Assembly (NCBI GenBank): GCA_030448025.1 | Contig: JAUJNQ010000003.1 | Coordinates: forward strand, 112,056 to 168,100 | DNA length: 56,045 nucleotides | Source: Acidimicrobiales bacterium | GTDB lineage: Bacteria; Actinomycetota; Acidimicrobiia; Acidimicrobiales; GCA-2861595 | Direction of reading: 5' to 3' | Part shown: one piece after another, positions 36,428-45,821 of the stretch | Position numbering within the stretch: position 1 is the stretch's first letter | Layout of the letters: each line of letters opens with the position of its first letter | Notes under the pieces: generated by a model | The model's database searches: none | The model's input: only the letters and a program-made list of their open reading frames with translations | Told to the model about the DNA's origin: nothing | Position numbers and translations under genes: made by a program

Positions 36428-38376
36428 GGGCCGCCAACCCGGGCGTCGACCTCGGCGCGCAACCGGGACACAAGCTCCTCCACGGGCACGTCACGCTCTG
36501 GACGATCGCCACCCCGGCGGTTGACGCCCACCGTGTCGACGGCGACGTCATCGTCCCCCACCACCAGCACATAGGGCAGCTTCTCCAGCTTGGCCTTGCG
36601 GATGCGCGCGGCTAGAGGCTCGTCACCCGGCACCCAGTCGACCCGCAGTCCCTCGCCCCTGAGGCGGTCGGCGACGGTCGCCGCTGCGGCGTCGTGGTCG
36701 TTGCGCACGCCGAGCACCCTGGCCTGAATCGGGGCCAGCCACGTGGGGAAGGCCCCGGCGTAGTGCTCGGTGAGGATCCCGAAGAACCGCTCCACGGAGC
36801 CGAAGAGGGCACGATGGATGACGCGGGGCCGATGGCGAGCGTTGTCCGTTCCGGTGTACTCGAGGTCGAAGCGCTGGGGGAGCTGGAAGTCGACCTGGAG
36901 CGTGGACATCTGCCAACGGCGGCCGATGGCGTCTCGGATGTGAACGTCGATCTTGGGGGCGTAGAACGCTCCCTCCCCTTCGGCCACCTCGAAGGGCACG
37001 CCGGCCGACTCCAATGCCGACCGGAGGGCGTCAGTGGCCTGGTCCCAGTCCTCTGGCCGGCCCACGAACTTCTCCGGCCGGGTGGCCAGCTCGGCCTCGA
37101 AGTCCTTGAAGCCGAACGTGCGCAGGAGCCGGAGGACGAAGGCAAGCAGACTGGCCAGCTCGTCGGCGAGCTGCTCGGGGGCGCAGAAGATGTGGGAGTC
37201 GTCCTGGGTGAAGCCCCGGGCCCGCATGAGGCCGTGGAGGACCCCGGAGCGCTCGAAGCGGTACACGGTGCCCAGCTCGAACAAGCGCAGCGGCAGGTCC
37301 CGGTAGGACCGCTGCTGGGACTTGTAGATGAGCATGTGCATGGGGCAGTTCATGGGCTTCGGGTAGTACGTGGCCCCTTCCATCTCCATCGGGGGGAACA
37401 TGGCCTCCGCGTACCACTGGAGGTGGCCGGACGCCTCGAACAGGTCGGCCTTGGCCAGATGGGGCGTGTTCACGAACTGGTACCCGCCCGCCTGGTGCTC
37501 TGCACGGGAGTAGTCCTCCATGAGCATGCGGATCATCCCGCCCTTTGGGTGGAAGACAGGCAGGCCGCCACCGATCTCAGAGGGGAAGTGGAACAGGTGC
37601 AGCTCGAGCCCCAGCCGGCGGTGATCTCGCCGCTCCGCCTCCTCCAGACGGTGCAGGTGGTCGGCCAGGGCCTCACCCGACTCCCATGCCGTGCCGTAGA
37701 TGCGCTGGAGCTGGGGGTTGCGCTCGTCACCGCGCCAGTAGGCACCGGCCACCCGCATGAGCTTGAACGAGCCCAGGCGGCGGGTGGACGGCACGTGGGG
37801 GCCCCGGCAGAGGTCGACGAACTCATTGCTGTTGCGATAGGCGCTGATGGCGGCCGCGTCCGCTCCTTGCGACGCGTCGGTGCCTTGGATGATCTCCACC
37901 TTGTAGGGCTGCTCGGAGAAGAGGGTGAGCCCCTCTTCCCGGCTCATCTCCTCGCGCAGGAAGGGTTGGCCCTCGGACACGATCCGGCGCATGCGTTCCT
38001 CGATGCGCCCGAGATCCTCGTCGCTGAAGTGGGCGCCGCCCGGTAGCTCGAAGTCGTAATAGAAGCCGTCCTCGATGGGTGGCCCGATGGCGAACCGGGC
38101 GCCGGGCCAGAGCTGGAGGACCGCCTGGGCCAGGACGTGGGCCGTGGAATGGCGGAGGACCTCCCTGCCTTCGGGCTCAGCGCCGGTGACGACGGCGACC
38201 CGGGCGCCGTCGGGCAAAGGGAGGTTGAGGTCCGTGAGGTTTCCGTCGACCCGCACCACGACGGCCGCTTTGGCCAGGCGCGGCCCGATGGCGGCAGCCA
38301 GATCGGCGCCAGTGGACCCCCCGTCCAGTTGCCGGGAGGAGCCGTCGGGGAGGATCACGCTGACCTCAGAAGGCAT
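36424..38376 (-). CDS. thrS: Threonine--tRNA ligase
   Basis: From ATG 38376 the 650 residues begin MPSEVSVILPDGSSRQLDGG, the TGS domain. The editing domain has HSTAHVLAQAVLQLWPGARF and a C-terminal His in CRGPHVPSTRR. The class II core has MNCPMHMLIYKSQQRSYRDLP, YRFERSGVLHGLMRARGFTQDDSHIF and LPQRFDLEYTGTDN. The anticodon domain follows with LAPIQARVLGV. Earlier in-frame residues are nonconserved and overlap the divergent GGDEF gene. All catalytic regions are present. Confidence 0.97.
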   Translation of the reverse strand: MPSEVSVILPDGSSRQLDGGSTGADLAAAIGPRLAKAAVVVRVDGNLTDLNLPLPDGARVAVVTGAEPEGREVLRHSTAHVLAQAVLQLWPGARFAIGPPIEDGFYYDFELPGGAHFSDEDLGRIEERMRRIVSEGQPFLREEMSREEGLTLFSEQPYKVEIIQGTDASQGADAAAISAYRNSNEFVDLCRGPHVPSTRRLGSFKLMRVAGAYWRGDERNPQLQRIYGTAWESGEALADHLHRLEEAERRDHRRLGLELHLFHFPSEIGGGLPVFHPKGGMIRMLMEDYSRAEHQAGGYQFVNTPHLAKADLFEASGHLQWYAEAMFPPMEMEGATYYPKPMNCPMHMLIYKSQQRSYRDLPLRLFELGTVYRFERSGVLHGLMRARGFTQDDSHIFCAPEQLADELASLLAFVLRLLRTFGFKDFEAELATRPEKFVGRPEDWDQATDALRSALESAGVPFEVAEGEGAFYAPKIDVHIRDAIGRRWQMSTLQVDFQLPQRFDLEYTGTDNARHRPRVIHRALFGSVERFFGILTEHYAGAFPTWLAPIQARVLGVRNDHDAAAATVADRLRGEGLRVDWVPGDEPLAARIRKAKLEKLPYVLVVGDDDVAVDTVGVNRRGGDRPERDVPVEELVSRLRAEVDARVGGP

Positions 38377-38407
38377 CCGGGCGAGGATAGCGGCGGAAAC
38401 TTTCCCC

Positions 38408-38434
38408 TCAGCGCGTGCACTCTTCGTCCGATAC
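38408..38434 (+). promoter_or_regulatory. Possible FliA/WhiG-type promoter of GGDEF-EAL paralogue 2
   Basis: TCAG (38408-38411), 15 bases, then TCCGATAC (38427-38434). Against TAAA-N15-GCCGATAA this is 2/4 and 6/8 with the CCGATA core and correct spacing. It is weaker than the site before paralogue 1, and it ends 20 bases before the TTG start with GGGAGG in between. Confidence 0.45.
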
Positions 38435-38454
38435 ATGACGGGGAGGCTCTGGAA

Positions 38455-41184
38455 TTGCGCCGATTTCGCTCCCGCGCCGTGGCCGCTGGTTGGTTGAGCG
38501 TGGGTTATCTCGTATGGATGGTCCTCGGCGGCGGGAGCCCTGCCGCGACTCGATTCGTGACTCGGGCGGCCCTGCTGACGGCCTGCTTCGTCACCGCGTG
38601 GGCCACGGCGAGGGCGGCAGCGCGCCACCGGGATGCAGCTCGCCGGGGGTGGGCGCTCCTGGCCCTCAGCGTCGGCTGCTGGTTCGTGTCCAACGCCTTG
38701 GCGGCGTTCTTCGAATGGACTCGCGGTGAGATCCTGCCCGTGCCGTCGAGCGCCGACGTCCCCTCCACCATCGGCCTCGTGCTCTCCGTCCTGGCCCTGC
38801 TCTCATTCCTGAAGCCGGCCCTTTCGAGCGCCACGCGCATGCGAACGCTGCTCGACGCACTGATGATCGCCAGCGCCCTGGTGTTCGTGGGATGGGCGCT
38901 GGCCTTCGAAGCCGCCTACCAGTCTGCGGGTGACGGGCCGGAACGGATGCTCACCCTTGCCTACCCGGTGACCGACATCGTCCTCGTCTCGCTCGTCATC
39001 GTCACCGCTTTGCGGGCCCGCCGGCAGTCACGCGCGCCGTGGGCGCTTCTCGGCACGGGCCTGGGCTTGTTCGCCATCGCCCACACCGCTTCGGCGTACC
39101 TGCAGGTGGCCCGAGCCAGCGTCTCGGGCGGCCTCGACGACGTCACGTGGATCGCCGGCTGCCTGCTGGTGGGACTGGCCGCCCTGGCCCCCGCCGAGGA
39201 TCCGCTGCCCGAGTGGTCCGAGTCGCGCCCCGGTGGGGCGGCAGGGGTTCTCGTGCCCTACGTGCCGGTCGTCCTGGCCGGCGCGGTCGGCCTCCAGCGG
39301 CTGGGGGACGGGGGTCTGTCGACCTTCCTGATGGGCAACGCCGCCGTGGTCCTGGTGCTCCTGATGACCCGCCAGGTGCTCGCCCAGTTCGAGAACCTGG
39401 ACCTGGCCAGAGAGCTCGAGGGCAAGGTCATGAGCCGCACCGCCGACCTGGAGCGGGAAGAGCGGAGGTTTCGCTCGCTGGCCCAGAACACGAACGACAT
39501 CGTCACCATCGTCGACGCCCACGGGATCATTCGATACCTGAGCCCGTCCGTGGAGCGGACCCTCGACTTTGGTCCCGACCAACTGGTGGGGACCCATCTG
39601 GGTGAGCTGCTCCACCCCGACGAGCGATCCGAAACGCTGGCCCTGGTGGCCGCGTCGGCGGCACCACCCGCCCCGCCGACGGTGCTGGCGGAGCAGCGGC
39701 TCCGGCGCCGGGACGGCTCGTGGTGCCTGACCGAGCTCAACGTGTGCAACCTCCTCGACGACGACGCCGTGGAGGGCATCGTGGTCACCAGCCGCGACAT
39801 CGGTGACCGGACGGCGCTCGAGAACCAGCTCCGCCACCAAGCTCTGCACGATCCCTTGACCGGCCTCGGGAACCGCACGCTGCTGCAGGACCGCCTGGAC
39901 CATGCGTTGGATCGCGGCAGGCGCAGCGGCAGCACGGTCGCGCTCCTCTTGTTGGACCTCGACGGGTTCAAGCAGGTAAACGACAGCTTCGGTCACATCA
40001 TGGGCGACCGCCTCCTGGTGGAGGTGGCCCGGCGCCTGAGCGACAGTGTCCGGCTCGGCGACACCGTCGCTCGCATGGGAGGCGATGAGTTCGCCGTCCT
40101 CCTGGAGAACGCCGAGGACGACCTGCCCACGATCGTCGCTCAGAGGATCCTGTACCGCCTGCGCGCCCCGACGACCCTCGACGGCAAGAGCCTGATGACC
40201 GCAGCCAGCTTGGGGCTGGTGGTGGGCTCGGCTTTGGTCTCCACCGGCGCCGATCTCCTGCGCAACGCTGATCTGGCCATGTACCGGGCCAAGGCCAAGG
40301 GGAAGAACGTCTACGAGGTGTACGTGCCCGACATGCACTCTGCGGCGCTGAAGCGCGTCGAGACCGAGAGCGACCTGCGCCGGGCTCTCCGGCAACGAGA
40401 GCTCATCCTCCACTACCAGCCCGTCATCGAGGTGAGCAGCGGGCGCATCACCGGCGCCGAGGCCCTCGTGCGCTGGCCCCACCCCGAGTACGGCCTCATC
40501 ATGCCGGGAGAGTTCCTCCCCCTTGCCGAGGAGAGCGACCTGATCGTGACCCTCGGGCGCTGGGTGTTGGGCGAGGCCTGTCGCCAAACGGCACGCCTGC
40601 GAACCTTGGGCATCGTCGACTCCGACTTCACCATGGCGCTGAACGTTGCCATCCGCCAGCTCACCAACCCGTTCCTGGTGAACGAGGTGAAGGAGGCGCT
40701 CGCCGACCACGGGCTCGAGCCGGGCGCACTGGTCCTGGAGATCACCGAAGGCGCCCTGGCCGAAGGGTCCAAAGAGCCGATCCTGCCCACCCTGCGGGCG
40801 CTGAAGAAGCTCGGCGTCCAGCTCGCCATCGACGACTTCGGGAAGGGTGAGTCCTCCCTCAGCCGCCTCGACAGCTTTCCCGTCGACAAGCTGAAGATCG
40901 ACCGCTACTTCGTGGACAGGATCCGCTCCGCCGACGATCAATCGTCGCTGGCCGGCGTGATGGTGGCCATGGCCAAGAGCCTGGGCCTGGCCACGGTGGC
41001 CGAGGGGGTGGAGACTCGAGAGCAGCTCGCCTTCCTTCGCCAGCAGCGGTGCGAGGAGGCCCAGGGCTTCTTCTTGTCACCCCCGCTGCCGGCGGACAAC
41101 TTCCAAGCTCTGTTGGAGAAGGCCAGCAAGGGCGAGAATCCTGTGTTCGCCCGTCCCCAGGGCCAACGCCCGGTCCTGGCCTGA
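38455..41184 (+). CDS. Membrane PAS-GGDEF-EAL c-di-GMP turnover protein (paralogue 2)
   Basis: The 909-residue product has the same layout as the protein at 22086: N-terminal membrane helices (1-310), PAS (about 330-450), GGDEF (542-546) with I-site RLGD just before, and EAL (669-671). Conserved EAL residues (NVAIRQ, LEITEGAL, AIDDFG, KIDRYFV, VAEGVET) are present. Loop 6 reads DDFGKGESSL instead of DDFGTGYSSL. I chose TTG 38455 behind GGGAGG (38441-38446, 8-base spacing), because longer starts would overlap thrS on the other strand. The membrane region may sense a signal. It ends convergent with mshC. Confidence 0.92.
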   Translation: MRRFRSRAVAAGWLSVGYLVWMVLGGGSPAATRFVTRAALLTACFVTAWATARAAARHRDAARRGWALLALSVGCWFVSNALAAFFEWTRGEILPVPSSADVPSTIGLVLSVLALLSFLKPALSSATRMRTLLDALMIASALVFVGWALAFEAAYQSAGDGPERMLTLAYPVTDIVLVSLVIVTALRARRQSRAPWALLGTGLGLFAIAHTASAYLQVARASVSGGLDDVTWIAGCLLVGLAALAPAEDPLPEWSESRPGGAAGVLVPYVPVVLAGAVGLQRLGDGGLSTFLMGNAAVVLVLLMTRQVLAQFENLDLARELEGKVMSRTADLEREERRFRSLAQNTNDIVTIVDAHGIIRYLSPSVERTLDFGPDQLVGTHLGELLHPDERSETLALVAASAAPPAPPTVLAEQRLRRRDGSWCLTELNVCNLLDDDAVEGIVVTSRDIGDRTALENQLRHQALHDPLTGLGNRTLLQDRLDHALDRGRRSGSTVALLLLDLDGFKQVNDSFGHIMGDRLLVEVARRLSDSVRLGDTVARMGGDEFAVLLENAEDDLPTIVAQRILYRLRAPTTLDGKSLMTAASLGLVVGSALVSTGADLLRNADLAMYRAKAKGKNVYEVYVPDMHSAALKRVETESDLRRALRQRELILHYQPVIEVSSGRITGAEALVRWPHPEYGLIMPGEFLPLAEESDLIVTLGRWVLGEACRQTARLRTLGIVDSDFTMALNVAIRQLTNPFLVNEVKEALADHGLEPGALVLEITEGALAEGSKEPILPTLRALKKLGVQLAIDDFGKGESSLSRLDSFPVDKLKIDRYFVDRIRSADDQSSLAGVMVAMAKSLGLATVAEGVETREQLAFLRQQRCEEAQGFFLSPPLPADNFQALLEKASKGENPVFARPQGQRPVLA

Positions 41185-41214: not shown

Positions 41215-42363
41215 TCAGGTCACGCCGAGGAGGGCAGCTGCCGACGTGACGTCGCGGCCCCCGGCGGCGGCATCGTCGATGGCTGCCAGTGCCGCCGGCG
41301 TGTCGAGGTCGTCGTCCAGAGCGGACCGCACCTGGTCGACAGCGTCGTCGTCACCGGTACCCGTTCCGCTGCCCGCCCCGGCCGTCCGCCACGCGTCGAG
41401 CCGGGCGTTCGCCAGGGGCAGGAGCGTGTCCTCCCATTCCCACGACTCGCGGTAGTGGTGGGCGATGATGGCCAGTCGCACGGCGGCCGGGTCCCACTTC
41501 TCGAGCAGGTCGCCGATGAAGACCAGGTTCCCGAGGGACTTGGACATCTTTTCCCGGCCCAGGCGGACCATGCCCACGTGCACCCAGTGGCGAACGAAGG
41601 GCTTGCCGGTGGCGGCCTCCGACTGGGCCGCTTCGCACTCGTGATGGGGGAAGATGAGGTCGCTGCCCCCGCCGTGCAGATCGATGGTGCTGCCGAGCTC
41701 TCGCAGCGCCAGCGCCGAGCACTCGACGTGCCACCCCGGACGCCCCGGTCCCCACCTCGACTCCCACCACGGCTCGTCTGGCGCCGAAGGTTGCCAGAGC
41801 ACGAAGTCGAGAGGGTCAAGCTTGTTGGGATCCTCGGGGTTGCCACCTCGTCGGCGGGCCAGCTCCAACATCTGGTGACGGGTGTAGTGGCTCACGTGGC
41901 CGAAGCGAGGGAAGGACCCGATCCTGAAGTAGACGCCTCCCCCGGCCTGGTAGGCGTGACCGGCGTCGAGGACCATGCCGATGAATCGGAGGATGTCCGA
42001 GATGGCCGAGGTAGCCCTCGGCTCGTACAGCGCCGGCAGCAGGCCGAGAGCCGCCATGTCGGCGTCGAAGCGCGCCAGCTGCTCGGCCGCCAGGTCCAGG
42101 TAATGGACCCCGAGCTGGCGGGCCCGGCGGAGGATGTCGTCGTCGACGTCGGTGATGTTGCGCACGCACTGCGTCTCGTGGCCCATGTCTCGCAGGCGGC
42201 GCTGGAGCACGTCGTAGGTCACGTACGTGGCGGCGTGGCCGAGATGAGGACCGTCGTCGGGCGTGATGCCACACGTGTACATGGTCACCACGGGCCCGGG
42301 ACGGAACGGAACCACCTCTCGCCGGGCGGTGTCGTACAGCCTGAGGAAGCCGCCGTCCTTCAC
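41215..42363 (-). CDS. mshC: Mycothiol ligase-like protein (MshC; cysteinyl-tRNA synthetase family)
   Basis: MshC joins cysteine to GlcN-inositol in mycothiol synthesis. The 382 residues show MYTCGITPDDGPHLGHAATY, the MshC version of the signature rather than the CysRS form CGPTVYNYxHxGN. VRNITDVDDDILRRARQLG and the zinc and KMSKS motifs (HVECSAL, REKMSKSLGN) follow. The C-terminus lacks the long tRNA-binding region of CysRS, which supports MshC. The signature differs from the common CGITPYDATHLGHA. It is followed by npdG, so a redox role is likely. Confidence 0.85.
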   Translation of the reverse strand: MKDGGFLRLYDTARREVVPFRPGPVVTMYTCGITPDDGPHLGHAATYVTYDVLQRRLRDMGHETQCVRNITDVDDDILRRARQLGVHYLDLAAEQLARFDADMAALGLLPALYEPRATSAISDILRFIGMVLDAGHAYQAGGGVYFRIGSFPRFGHVSHYTRHQMLELARRRGGNPEDPNKLDPLDFVLWQPSAPDEPWWESRWGPGRPGWHVECSALALRELGSTIDLHGGGSDLIFPHHECEAAQSEAATGKPFVRHWVHVGMVRLGREKMSKSLGNLVFIGDLLEKWDPAAVRLAIIAHHYRESWEWEDTLLPLANARLDAWRTAGAGSGTGTGDDDAVDQVRSALDDDLDTPAALAAIDDAAAGGRDVTSAAALLGVT

Positions 42364-42370
42364 CGGCCCG

Positions 42371-43027
42371 TCACACCTGGATGCCGGTGAAGCGCAGTGC
42401 TGCCTTGGTGTGGTAGCGGGTGTTGAGCTGGAGAAGGACGGCGGTGATGGCCTCGATTGGCGCGGCGTTGGCCAGCGATCCTGCGTTCAGGGGTCGAAGA
42501 CGGGGGATGAGGTCCACCAGCTCGGCGGCGGCCTCGTAGGCCGAAGGGTGGTCCGAGCAGATGAGGACATCGCTCTCGACCGGTTCGTCCAGGCCGGCGA
42601 GCGACCGGGCAGGCAGGTGATGCAGGGCGGCGGTCACCAGGGCAGCGGGGACGGCGCTCTGAACGTGGGCGGCAACCGATCCCCGCGGTGGCACGAGGGG
42701 CTCGAACTCATGGCCCATGCGCGTGATGGCGTTGGCCATCGAGATCACGACCTTGCCGTCGAGCTGCTTGGCCACCGACCCCGCCGTCGACGCTGCCGCT
42801 TCCCAGGGCGTGGCCAGCACCACGATGTCGGCCTCGGCGGCGGCGGCGTTGTCGCCCCCCACCACCGCCAGCGTGCGGTCGGGCCAGCGCTCCTGGATGG
42901 ACCTGCACGCCTGGTCGGCCCGCTCCCGCGAGCGCGAGCCGAGCACGACCTCGACGCCGACCGAGGCCAGGCGAGCGGAGAGCCCCTTTCCTGCCGGTCC
43001 CGTACCTCCGAGGACACCTACGTTCAT
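42371..43027 (-). CDS. npdG: F420-dependent NADP reductase (NADPH:F420 oxidoreductase)
   Basis: The enzyme moves hydride between coenzyme F420 and NADP. The 218 residues start MNVGVLGGTGPAGKGLSARLASVG with a Rossmann glycine pattern. VVLGSRSRERADQA, which binds the NADP 2'-phosphate, and the SMANAITRMGHEFEP region follow. VQSAVPAALVTAALHHLPA and a C-terminal NAAPIEAITAVLLQLN are typical. It is encoded eight bases upstream of mshC on the same strand. It implies an F420-making organism. Confidence 0.9.
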   Translation of the reverse strand: MNVGVLGGTGPAGKGLSARLASVGVEVVLGSRSRERADQACRSIQERWPDRTLAVVGGDNAAAAEADIVVLATPWEAAASTAGSVAKQLDGKVVISMANAITRMGHEFEPLVPPRGSVAAHVQSAVPAALVTAALHHLPARSLAGLDEPVESDVLICSDHPSAYEAAAELVDLIPRLRPLNAGSLANAAPIEAITAVLLQLNTRYHTKAALRFTGIQV

Positions 43028-43037
43028 CTGGCCGAGG

Positions 43038-43682
43038 CTATTCCCCGGGCCTCACCGGCTGCCCGTCTTGGCCAGGCCCGCCCCCGCCCGCCAGGTCGCG
43101 GGCCATGGCGTAACCGAGCGACCGAGTGGCTCGACGGTTGATCTCGGCGCCGGCGAGGGCGCCGGCCAGGAGCGGGGCCAGGCTGGAGAGGTTTCTTCCC
43201 AGACGCCCGGCCAAGCGTCGACGCACCAGCCGGACGGCCTCGCTGCGAGCCCTGCGGCCGAGGGCGTCGGCCATCCCTCCGGGGTGGGCGAGCGTGGAGG
43301 GGCTCACGCCCCGGCGCTCGGCCCAGGCCATCACCAGGGCCAGGTTGCGCTGGGCGGGCGCCGTGGGCATGGGGCGGTCGAAGATCCCGTGCAGCTCGGC
43401 CACCAGCTTGAGCTCGATGACTGCCACCGCCACGGTCTCGGCGATCAGCTCCATGGGGATGGTGAGCCATGCAGGGGGGGCGAGCTCCTGGGCTCCCACC
43501 AGCACGCCGGCCGACGCCCCCACCGCGGCCGACGAACGGCTGGCGGCGCGGATGACCTCGTCGACGAGCTCGGGACCCTGCTTGGCATGGTGGGCTTCGA
43601 GGGTCGCCCGGTCCCGCACCGGGATGCGGGGGGCGTTGTCCACCAGCCACTCGGCGAGCCACCGGCCGTTGGCCACGGCCAT
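43038..43682 (-). CDS. Hypothetical protein with EcsC-like character
   Basis: The 214-residue product from ATG 43682 is Ala/Arg/Leu-rich. It has one hydrophobic helix-like region (WLTIPMELIAETVAVAVIELKL) and a basic C-terminal half (RLVRRRLAGRLGRNLSSL). The frame stays open upstream and reads STHEGEEVQSQDALSGEADIRALRALARSLSTSA. An in-frame CTG at 43802, just after the TlpA-like gene's stop, could be a real start. I do not recognise the family with confidence. It is between npdG and the selenoprotein candidate. Confidence 0.65.
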   Translation of the reverse strand: MAVANGRWLAEWLVDNAPRIPVRDRATLEAHHAKQGPELVDEVIRAASRSSAAVGASAGVLVGAQELAPPAWLTIPMELIAETVAVAVIELKLVAELHGIFDRPMPTAPAQRNLALVMAWAERRGVSPSTLAHPGGMADALGRRARSEAVRLVRRRLAGRLGRNLSSLAPLLAGALAGAEINRRATRSLGYAMARDLAGGGGPGQDGQPVRPGE

Positions 43683-43812: not shown

Positions 43813-44355
43813 CTACCGGGCCAGCAGTGCCTCGAAGCGGGCCTTCAGCGCGTCGGCCTCGAGATCGCCGAACTCCACGGTGGCCTTCCCACCGGCGTCG
43901 ACGAAGATCCACGTGGGCGGGGCCCGGACACCGAGCTTCGACCACAGCCGGCCCTCGGGATCGGCGGCGCTGGGCACGAACTCGAGTCCGTGGCGCTTGA
44001 CGAAGTCCCGCATCTCCCCCACGCCTGCCTTGCCCGGCATGCCCACCAGCTGCACCCTGCCTTCGTACTGTCGCGCCACCTGGGCGACACCGGGTGCGAC
44101 CCGGTTGCACGAGCCTCACCACGGGGCCCAGAACCAGAGGGCCACGTCCTCGCCGGCGAAGTCGGCGCCGTTGACGGTGGAGCTGTCCAGGCCGCGGGCC
44201 TGGAACTGCAAAGAGGCAGGCACCTGCTCCGAGGATGTGGCCGCCGGGGCCGGTCGCTCACGGGCAGCCTGGCTGCCGCAGCCGATCAGAGCCAGGGCCA
44301 AGCCGACGCTGCCGAGGCTCACCACCAGACGACGCACTCCACCCAGGGTAGCCAC
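43813..44355 (-). CDS. Thioredoxin-like (TlpA/redoxin) lipoprotein, predicted selenoprotein with UxxC
   Basis: Translated through one in-frame TGA (44118-44116, codon 80) the product is 180 residues. It has a signal and lipobox (VVSLGSVGLALALIGC), then a Pro/Ala-rich linker, then a thioredoxin fold. The active site reads ALWFWAPW-(TGA)-GSCNRVAPGV, where relatives have W-C-x-x-C. The fold continues after the TGA with a cis-Pro region (VRAPPTWIFVDAGGKATVEF) and ends EALLAR. So the TGA takes the place of the first active-site cysteine and is best read as selenocysteine. GTG start at 44355; GTG 44334 is possible. A nonsense mutation remains the alternative. Confidence 0.8.
44089..44105 (-). promoter_or_regulatory. 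Candidate bacterial SECIS hairpin after the in-frame TGA
   Basis: In the transcript, ten bases after the UGA, ACCGGGU CGC ACCCGGU forms a perfect 7-bp stem with a three-base loop. Bacterial SECIS elements lie directly after the UGA with a short stem-loop and a G near the start of the loop. Here the loop starts 17 bases after the UGA and its second base is G. This is the expected position and form. Confidence 0.6.
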
Positions 44356-44368
44356 TGCCCGTTCGCCC

Positions 44369-45754
44369 TCAGGGCTCGGCGTAGGTCCAGTCGGGACGTT
44401 TCCGGGCGTGGCGCTCGTCGTAGACGGCGACGCCTTCGACGATGTCGTCCAGCTTGGGGATGGGAAGGTGGCGGGCGGGGAGCTCGCACCAGCCTTCGAG
44501 GTGGGTGGCGAACTCGTCGGGAAAGGTCTGCAGGATGCTGGACACCACCAGCTGCTCCTCTGTGCCGAGGTAGCAGCGGTTGGCGTCGGTGACGGTCTGC
44601 AGCCGGCGGCCCACGTTTCCCACGTCGGCCTCGCTGCCCGTGCCGGCCTCGATCTTGGCCAGGATGGCGGTGATCTCCGCCGAGCCCGTCTTGCACGGCG
44701 GGCACTGCCCGCATGACTCCACGGAGAGGAAGCGCGAGTACTCGTGCGCCACTGCCACCATGCACGCGGAGTCGTCGTACAGCGCGAAGCCGCCCGCGCC
44801 GAGGCCGCTGCCGATGGCCTTCATGGCTTCGTACGACAGCGGCGTGTCGAAGTCGGAGGCGTGGATCACGGCGTTGGCCACCCCCGAGAAGGCGGCCTTG
44901 AAGTGCCTTCCCGGAAGCGGCCCACCCGCCACCTCGAGCAGCTCCGACAGCGGCGAGCCCATCTCCATCTCGTAGACCCCCGCCCGCGCCACGTCGCCCA
45001 CCACCGTGCACACGATCGTCCCGGGCGACTCCTCGCTGCCCATGCGCCGGAACCGCTCAGATCCCCGGCTGAGCACGTGGGGCACGTTGGCCAGCGTCTC
45101 CAGGTTGTTCACCAGGGTGGGGTTGGCCTCGGGTGACGCCAGTTGGCCCGGCTCGGGCGCGTGCGCCTCCCAACCCATCTGCGGGCCGGTGGCGAACAGG
45201 CCGTGCTGGAAGGGCGGCATCAACCGGGGCATGGGGTCATGGCCCTCGATGACCTCGAGCAGGGCCTTCTCCTCCCCGAAGAGGTACTCGTCGGGCCCGG
45301 CGGCGATGATCATGGTCATGCCCTCGAGGAGGCCGGCCGCGTCCATCTCCTGGATGGCCAGCTCGAGGGATAGCCGCTCGACCTCGAACTTGGCCTTGGT
45401 CCCGAGGTAGGCGTCGGGAGCGTCCATGCACAGGGCGGCGATGGCCAGGCCCTCCACGCATTGGTACGGGTTGGCGCGCATGAGGGTGCGGTCCTTGAAC
45501 GTGGCCGGCTCGCCCTCGGCGGCGTTGCAGACGACGTAGTGGCGGCCTGGGACGGAGCGAGTCGATGCCCACTTGGCGCCGGTGGGGAAACCACCGCCTC
45601 CCCGCCCCCGCAGCCCGGAGCGGGAGATCTCCTCGATGGTGGCCTCGGGCCCGATCCGGCGGGCCCGCAACAGCCCCTTGCCCCCGCCGAGCTCGAGGTA
45701 CTGCTCCAACGAGGTGACGGGTGATTCGGCTAGGAGGAAGGACGACAAGGGCAC
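44369..45754 (-). CDS. NuoF-like NADH-binding flavoprotein subunit
   Basis: The protein resembles the 51-kDa NADH-, FMN- and [4Fe-4S]-binding subunit of complex I and related dehydrogenases. It shows GLRGRGGGGFPTGAKW (FMN/NADH site), NAAEGEPATFKDR and LANNLETLANV-like VNNLETLANVPHVL. The cluster ligands are ESCGQCPPCKTG with a later Cys in DANRCYLG. The C-terminus resembles a SLBB-like and cluster-binding end. It stands alone: no nuoE or nuoG is nearby. I chose GTG 45754; TTG 45790 is possible. Its electron partner is unknown. Confidence 0.85.
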   Translation of the reverse strand: MPLSSFLLAESPVTSLEQYLELGGGKGLLRARRIGPEATIEEISRSGLRGRGGGGFPTGAKWASTRSVPGRHYVVCNAAEGEPATFKDRTLMRANPYQCVEGLAIAALCMDAPDAYLGTKAKFEVERLSLELAIQEMDAAGLLEGMTMIIAAGPDEYLFGEEKALLEVIEGHDPMPRLMPPFQHGLFATGPQMGWEAHAPEPGQLASPEANPTLVNNLETLANVPHVLSRGSERFRRMGSEESPGTIVCTVVGDVARAGVYEMEMGSPLSELLEVAGGPLPGRHFKAAFSGVANAVIHASDFDTPLSYEAMKAIGSGLGAGGFALYDDSACMVAVAHEYSRFLSVESCGQCPPCKTGSAEITAILAKIEAGTGSEADVGNVGRRLQTVTDANRCYLGTEEQLVVSSILQTFPDEFATHLEGWCELPARHLPIPKLDDIVEGVAVYDERHARKRPDWTYAEP

Positions 45755-45821
45755 TGGAATGGTTTGCCACGAGGCGACCGGGACGGGCAAGTCGGCGTGG
45801 CGACTGGGTTACGGTCGGGTC
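45755..45821. promoter_or_regulatory. Divergent promoter region (NuoF-like and MOSC genes)
   Basis: The 67 bases between the two divergent starts must hold both promoters. No strong -10/-35 pair is apparent on either strand. Confidence 0.35.

Follow-up and report, generated by a model that had tools for sequence, protein, structure and literature searches.

A predicted selenocysteine-containing, DsbF-like thioredoxin lipoprotein encoded across an in-frame UGA codon in an Acidimicrobiales bacterium

A gene on the minus strand of the window (the whole stretch of 56,045 nucleotides of Acidimicrobiales DNA analyzed here) very probably encodes a selenocysteine (Sec)-containing thioredoxin-like lipoprotein of the DsbF/Mpt53 type. 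We named this gene trxU. The insertion of Sec at its internal TGA is strongly indicated by the fact that approximately 100 related genes in the order share this TGA, followed by a conserved RNA hairpin. The same reading is supported by the complete Sec machinery of the genome, the conservation of the TGA and its co-occurrence with SelB, the covariation of the hairpin, a bias towards one valine codon (GTC) and the coding constraint downstream of the TGA. Further support comes from the clustering of the Sec state on the phylogenetic tree, the DsbF fold, a second TGA-containing redoxin gene with a hairpin, and a CcdA/DsbD-like protein encoded in the same genome.

The trxU gene and its reading frame

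When TGA is translated as a residue, the trxU product comprises 180 aa from a GTG start and contains Sec80 and Cys83. The frame has a single internal TGA, at codon 80, and its terminator is TAG. The active-site context is VALWFWAPW-U-GSC, and the TGA (44118-44116) occupies the place of the first Cys of WCxxC, precisely as the first-pass annotation of this DNA had proposed; that annotation gave no strand, and the redoxin gene was found on the minus strand (44355-43813). Under the standard code the gene falls into two ORFs of 79 aa (44116-44355) and 88 aa (43813-44079), as had been anticipated for conventional gene calling. The coordinates of all features are given in Table 1.

Table 1. Features of the trxU locus (positions in the window)
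Feature	Position	Strand	Basis or remarks
trxU (name given here), selenoprotein gene (predicted)	43813..44355	-	translation; Pfam redoxin/thioredoxin; DsbF 3ios, E 3e-26; predicted fold
In-frame UGA, codon 80, first position of WCxxC	44116..44118	-	sequence; TGA/Cys in relatives
Predicted export signal, with lipobox LIGC (Cys26) at its end	44278..44355	-	by inspection; comparable lipoboxes in L021, L022, L023, L027
Most likely SECIS hairpin, UGUCGC-CC-AGGU-GG-c-GCGACA	44069..44089	-	loop AGGU 34 nt after UGA; -11.5 kcal/mol; covariation in 18 genes
Hairpin of the first-pass annotation, ACCGGGU-CGC-ACCCGGU	44089..44105	-	-10.3 kcal/mol; present, not conserved in register
NuoF-like flavoprotein gene	44369..45790	-	Complex1_51K, NADH_4Fe-4S; below NuoF equivalog cut-off; ends 13 bases upstream of trxU
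ORF downstream of trxU, no family match	43038..43682	-	profile matches: none
npdG, NADPH-dependent F420 reductase	42371..43027	-	TIGR01915, 183 bits (cut-off 150); kept in G002
mshC-like ligase (mycothiol synthesis)	41215..42363	-	TIGR03447, 416 bits (cut-off 485); kept in G002

The encoded protein is composed of a predicted export signal, the lipobox, a linker and a thioredoxin-like domain. The lipobox, recognized by inspection, suggests export of the product, with a lipid anchor at Cys26 on the external side of the membrane.

Downstream of the TGA the gene is under purifying selection: comparison with relatives of the same family gave dN values of 0.22-0.26 and dS values of 0.63-0.75, with changes mostly at third positions. 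This coding constraint, together with the alignment of residues 43-180 with DsbF, shows that the reading frame beyond the TGA did not arise by chance, in agreement with the earlier claim that the fold resumes in the same frame. The cis-Pro region postulated at that time was likewise recovered, as Pro147, which aligns with the cis-Pro of DsbF.

Protein family and fold

The trxU protein matches the thioredoxin and redoxin models of Pfam, and the nearest solved proteins are DsbF of Mycobacterium tuberculosis (3ios; E 3e-26) and Mpt53/DsbE (E 1.5e-20). The structure predicted for it (mean pLDDT 86.5, approx. 97 over the domain) superposes on DsbF 3ios with a TM score of 0.96 on the target and an rmsd of 1.0. 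In sequence, fold, WCxxC-type site and cis-Pro, the protein thus has the features of the DsbF family, with Sec replacing the first Cys.

Distribution of the Sec and Cys forms

Of the best matches in the 59 nearest genomes, most have one internal TGA, and the extracted homologues carry the motif WFWAP-x-(TGA or Cys)-x-x-C in register. Among the 101 matches listed at E 1e-20 or better across the order (397 genomes), 88 contain internal TGA (one or two) and 13 contain none. The collected motifs, a set enriched for TGA through the choice of loci, have TGA at the codon-80 position in 106 of 142 cases and Cys in the remaining 36. An alignment of homologues, which the first-pass annotation had proposed as a check, therefore revealed exactly Cys or TGA at this position. 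The presence of TGA in many independent genomes, including the near-complete single-contig genomes G011 and G055, is at odds with the misreading of TGC or TGT that had been considered there.

The TGA form is closely associated with SelB: all 20 near-set genomes carrying this form have a SelB match over the cut-off, as opposed to 15 of the 39 others (Fisher p = 2e-6). All five near-set genomes with the form WFWAP[W/H]C (G007, G010, G023, G048 and G050) are without SelB; a few Cys copies coexist with TGA copies in one genome, e.g. L087 in G213. The maximum-likelihood tree (138 rows) required 6 changes between the Sec and Cys labels, compared with 37 when these were shuffled, and grouped the window protein with those of G002, G004 and G005 in a clade consisting only of Sec forms (support 100/97). 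In G001 (approx. 85% complete), the only other genome of the window's genus, both SelB and the TGA form are lacking, a point against the Sec reading; patchy loss or an incomplete assembly would account for it. A scan of genome contigs revealed named relatives, mostly of Streptomyces and Mycolicibacterium, all of which have Cys; viral contigs yielded no relatives.

At least five TGA-containing redoxins of the family (L027, L052, L053, L055 and L062) are encoded in a single genome, G031. A second subfamily has mostly the motif WFWAPHUxxC (L039, L041, L045, L047, L054, L056, L057, L060-L062 and L064-L066). Two TGA codons, one at each active-site position of the motif WAPWUPFU or WAPWUPHU, are present in L111, L112, L113, L114, L115, L116 and L118 (genomes G290, G276, G146, G294, G391, G109 and G171); these genes form one clade (support 100/99) with a single conserved CGGUCG hairpin downstream, and it is possible that they encode a double-Sec UxxU protein.

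Selenocysteine machinery of the genome

The search for selA, selB, selD and tRNA-Sec recommended in the first-pass annotation was successful for all four genes in the genome (2.7 Mb). The scores were 421 bits for selA (cut-off 268), 286 bits for selB (cut-off 242), which closely follows selA, 327 bits for selD (cut-off 125) and 67.8 bits for tRNA-Sec (gathering score 47), the last being identified by ARAGORN as SeC with the anticodon tca. The window is located on a contig of 438 kb, selA, selB and the tRNA-Sec gene on one of 747 kb, and selD on one of 298 kb, so there is no reason to suspect small contaminating contigs. With the machinery present, Cys or TGA at the position in relatives, and the codon recurring as TGA, none of the observations that the first-pass annotation had named as refuting was made, and the sequence data support the Sec interpretation.

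The same genome contains a second candidate selenoprotein gene (L180 1504; G000:C10 near 299.9 kb), whose product is peroxiredoxin-like with the motif VIRHRY-TGA-LPCQ. Its TGA is followed by the hairpin GCACCTC-GTG-GAGGTGC (7 bp), with the loop GTG 21 nt after the TGA. FdhA was considered as a further Sec user and rejected, as the match was only partial, below the cut-off and without an internal stop. Three haem-copper oxidase matches exceeded the cut-off, which suggests that the organism probably respires oxygen, and one CcdA/DsbD-like protein (G000:C4:52212) was identified.

The recoding hairpin

The folding energy of the whole stretch, compared with synonymous shuffles, gave only a weak signal (mean z -0.39 for TGA genes and +0.05 for Cys genes), and for this reason we used position-specific covariation. 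Offsets start from 0 at the base immediately following the UGA. The majority of family members have a loop, GGUC, at offsets 26-29, which is closed by various stems (CUGC/GCAG, CCAC/GUGG, CUAC/GUAG, CCUC/GAGG, CUUC/GAAG and others). In 25 diverse sequences, 86.9% of the cells are paired in this register, with two-sided changes in 26 cells vs 6.1 after shuffling, and the covariation score is 0.474 vs 0.155 in the shuffled controls (0/500). The sequence CGGTCG occurs in 84 of 101 TGA genes; among the 34 Cys genes, GGTC occurs in 4. In the 103 TGA genes with Val at offsets 27-29, within the loop region of the hairpin, the codon is GTC 102 times, vs 369 of 818 (45%) other downstream Val codons of the same genes.

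A second register, with the loop AG[G/U]NN at offsets 34-38, was identified in the window clade and the PH-type genes (n=18), where 89.7% of the cells are paired; its covariation score is 0.245, vs 0.121 when shuffled (0/500) and no more than 0.066 when slid. RNAalifold, applied to the second-register genes, found the AG[G/U]NN helix alone. The WFWAPHUxxC subfamily shares this register with the window clade, its loop at these offsets being AGUUN.

In trxU the covariation points to the helix at 44069-44089 as most probably the SECIS element. When kept in strict register, this helix contains one C-C mismatch, and a drawing with a bulge represents it best; it has a probability of approx. 0.5 in context, and competing folds exist. 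It also has the geometry of a SECIS element (Table 1), although geometry alone is a weak and non-discriminating test, as it is satisfied by 100 of 101 TGA genes and also by 26 of 34 Cys genes. A search of Rfam gave no match around trxU.

The first-pass annotation had assigned the recoding function to the adjacent hairpin at 44089-44105. This structure does exist, and its geometry (loop CGC, second base G, 17 nt downstream of the UGA) agrees with the published one; L021-L024 contain a similar hairpin. However, in the same 18 genes only 62.7% of its cells are paired and its covariation is no better than that of the slid controls, while the neighboring hairpin is conserved. It is therefore unlikely that Sec is inserted under the direction of this hairpin, which is possibly an accessory structure; the next hairpin, at 44069-44089, remains our choice for the SECIS element.

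Genomic neighborhood

The NuoF-like gene and trxU are probably cotranscribed. The mycothiol- and F420-related neighbors reported by the first-pass annotation are indeed present, npdG with a score over its cut-off and the mshC-like gene with a score under it. The product of the latter also reached 340.2 bits with the model of cysteine-tRNA ligase (cut-off 340), but its best score was obtained with MshC, and this identity is likely but not certain. The order trxU-npdG-mshC is kept in G002, but in G004 and G005 no neighbor was detected close to the gene, and so the operon context, which had been taken as a guide to a redox role, carries little weight for function.

Inspection of other loci revealed a dihydrolipoamide dehydrogenase-like gene on the opposite strand near the Sec redoxin in 13 of 43 cases (L182 and 12 others in L067-L069 and L181-L220), and lipoate and 2-oxoacid dehydrogenase-like genes are often close by as well. 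A gene for a large membrane protein with PAS, GGDEF and EAL domains, i.e. a cyclic-di-GMP signaling protein, borders the part of the window that was examined (38137-41184, plus strand).

Proposed mechanism and alternative explanations

The machinery and the hairpin described above suggest that SelB carrying Sec-tRNA(UCA) would recognize the hairpin following UGA80 (loop AGGU, 34 nt downstream), and that Sec would be inserted at this codon instead of termination. The precursor, judging from its lipobox, would then be exported and held by a lipid anchor at Cys26 on the external side of the membrane. There, the selenolate of Sec80 could attack a disulfide or another oxidized sulfur of an extracytoplasmic partner, with Cys83 resolving the bond with the partner. 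A membrane thiol relay may then recycle the protein, and the CcdA/DsbD-like protein of the genome is a candidate for this relay.

Other explanations of the TGA must be weighed against this. If it were a genuine stop, the gene would be decaying or a truncated protein would be made; the standard code does end the ORF at this point, but the TGA is found at the same place in many genera, the sequence beyond it is under purifying selection, a synonymous GTC and a hairpin are conserved, and the form co-occurs with SelB, all of which make this explanation highly improbable. A pseudogene and a sequencing error were also rejected, given that the TGA is conserved, that the gene is under coding constraint and that the TGA form co-occurs with SelB. 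Decoding of the TGA as another residue, e.g. Trp or Cys, through a variant code or a suppressor tRNA is compatible with the protein alignment taken alone; against it stand the full Sec system, the fact that the TGA replaces a redox Cys and not Trp, and the other genes of the window, which end or run normally under table 11, so that we consider it even less credible than a stop. An error of sequencing or assembly, the true codon being TGC or TGT, might be suspected from the existence of Cys homologues, but the same TGA appears in independent assemblies (including G011 and G055), and of these explanations it is the one to which we attach the least, indeed negligible, weight.

It is plausible, though the less probable case, that a Sec-containing TrxU acts mainly as an oxidase or peroxidase and not as a disulfide reductase: its nearest solved relatives, DsbF and Mpt53/DsbE, have been described as putative extracytoplasmic Trx proteins whose function is unknown (PMC3792642), and the haem-copper oxidases make oxygen respiration by the organism probable. 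The UxxC site with its resolving Cys and the CcdA-like protein fit a reducing relay, but they are not decisive. A reducing role is thus slightly favored over an oxidizing one, and a peroxidase role is also possible.

Significance and comparison with known systems

According to a 2026 review, selenoproteins are rarely kept in aerobic bacteria (PMC13188914), while an earlier survey reported that Sec users are common among aerobes and that selenoprotein-rich species are mostly anaerobic (PMC5029168). Against this background, the surface redox lipoproteins described here are mainly Sec-based across an order, and haem-copper oxidases are encoded in the window genome. We tentatively suggest, as a proposition that falls a little short of an even chance, that in Acidimicrobiia with aerobic respiratory genes selenium provides the main chemistry of an extracytoplasmic thiol relay, with DsbF-type lipoproteins that are predominantly Sec-based across the order, duplicated (at least five Sec copies in G031), represented by Cys forms in SelB-less relatives, served by two SECIS registers and, in one clade, double-Sec (WAPWUPFU). 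If this is true, the proteins of that clade might carry an intramolecular diselenide, made by their two Sec residues, on the cell surface.

Standard gene calling probably cuts proteins of this family in two, since no curated model tested reaches its cut-off, and such cuts would hide both the family and how much selenium the organisms require. With its naturally occurring Sec, Cys and double-Sec forms and its two hairpin positions, the family would be a good system for studying what Sec adds to extracytoplasmic thiol chemistry and how far SelB tolerates variation in hairpin distance.

No paper combining Acidimicrobiia with selenoproteins was found among the open-access papers searched. A DsbF-like family that is mainly Sec-based throughout an order of Acidimicrobiia may be undescribed, published catalogues having been compared by description; the same may apply, within the family, to the presence of five or more Sec copies in a single genome, the two SECIS registers, the Cys copies in SelB-less relatives and the UxxU clade.

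UxxC thioredoxin-like selenoproteins as such are known. The 2008 marine Global Ocean Sampling survey described Trx-like 1 (COG0526, 321 sequences) and Prx-like 3 (pfam08534) (PMC2398784), and the 2026 catalogue holds several UxxC entries, including Redoxin PF08534 and cd02966 (sequences HEU0032618.1 and MGB1650493.1; PMC13188914); UxxU has also been reported, in Prx-like families (PMC2398784, PMC13188914). Like TrxU, these are thioredoxin-fold thiol oxidoreductases with Sec first in UxxC, but they are broad domain bins, compared here by description, and the trxU family could lie inside one of them.

In NCBIfam, the window protein and ten relatives were all below the cut-off of every model. The ResA-like selenoprotein model NF041054 (WAxxUGC_long), which has a ResA/TlpA-like domain and an active-site Sec in common with TrxU, gave 20.6 bits against a cut-off of 300 (relatives no more than 37.4 bits); it differs in its model length of 354 and its UGC motif, as opposed to UxxC in a lipoprotein of 180 aa. 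The UGSC-containing selenoprotein model NF041046 shares the letters U-G-S-C with TrxU, but both middle residues vary freely in the trxU family, and the window protein was not among its matches at E 0.001.

The closest counterparts are DsbF (Rv1677, PDB 3ios) and Mpt53/DsbE (Rv2878c, PDB 1lu4), which share with the trxU product the fold, length, WFWAPWxxxC site and cis-Pro region and are exported, as is predicted for the trxU product. Unlike TrxU, they have Cys at the position of the nucleophile, and their synthesis does not need a recoding hairpin.
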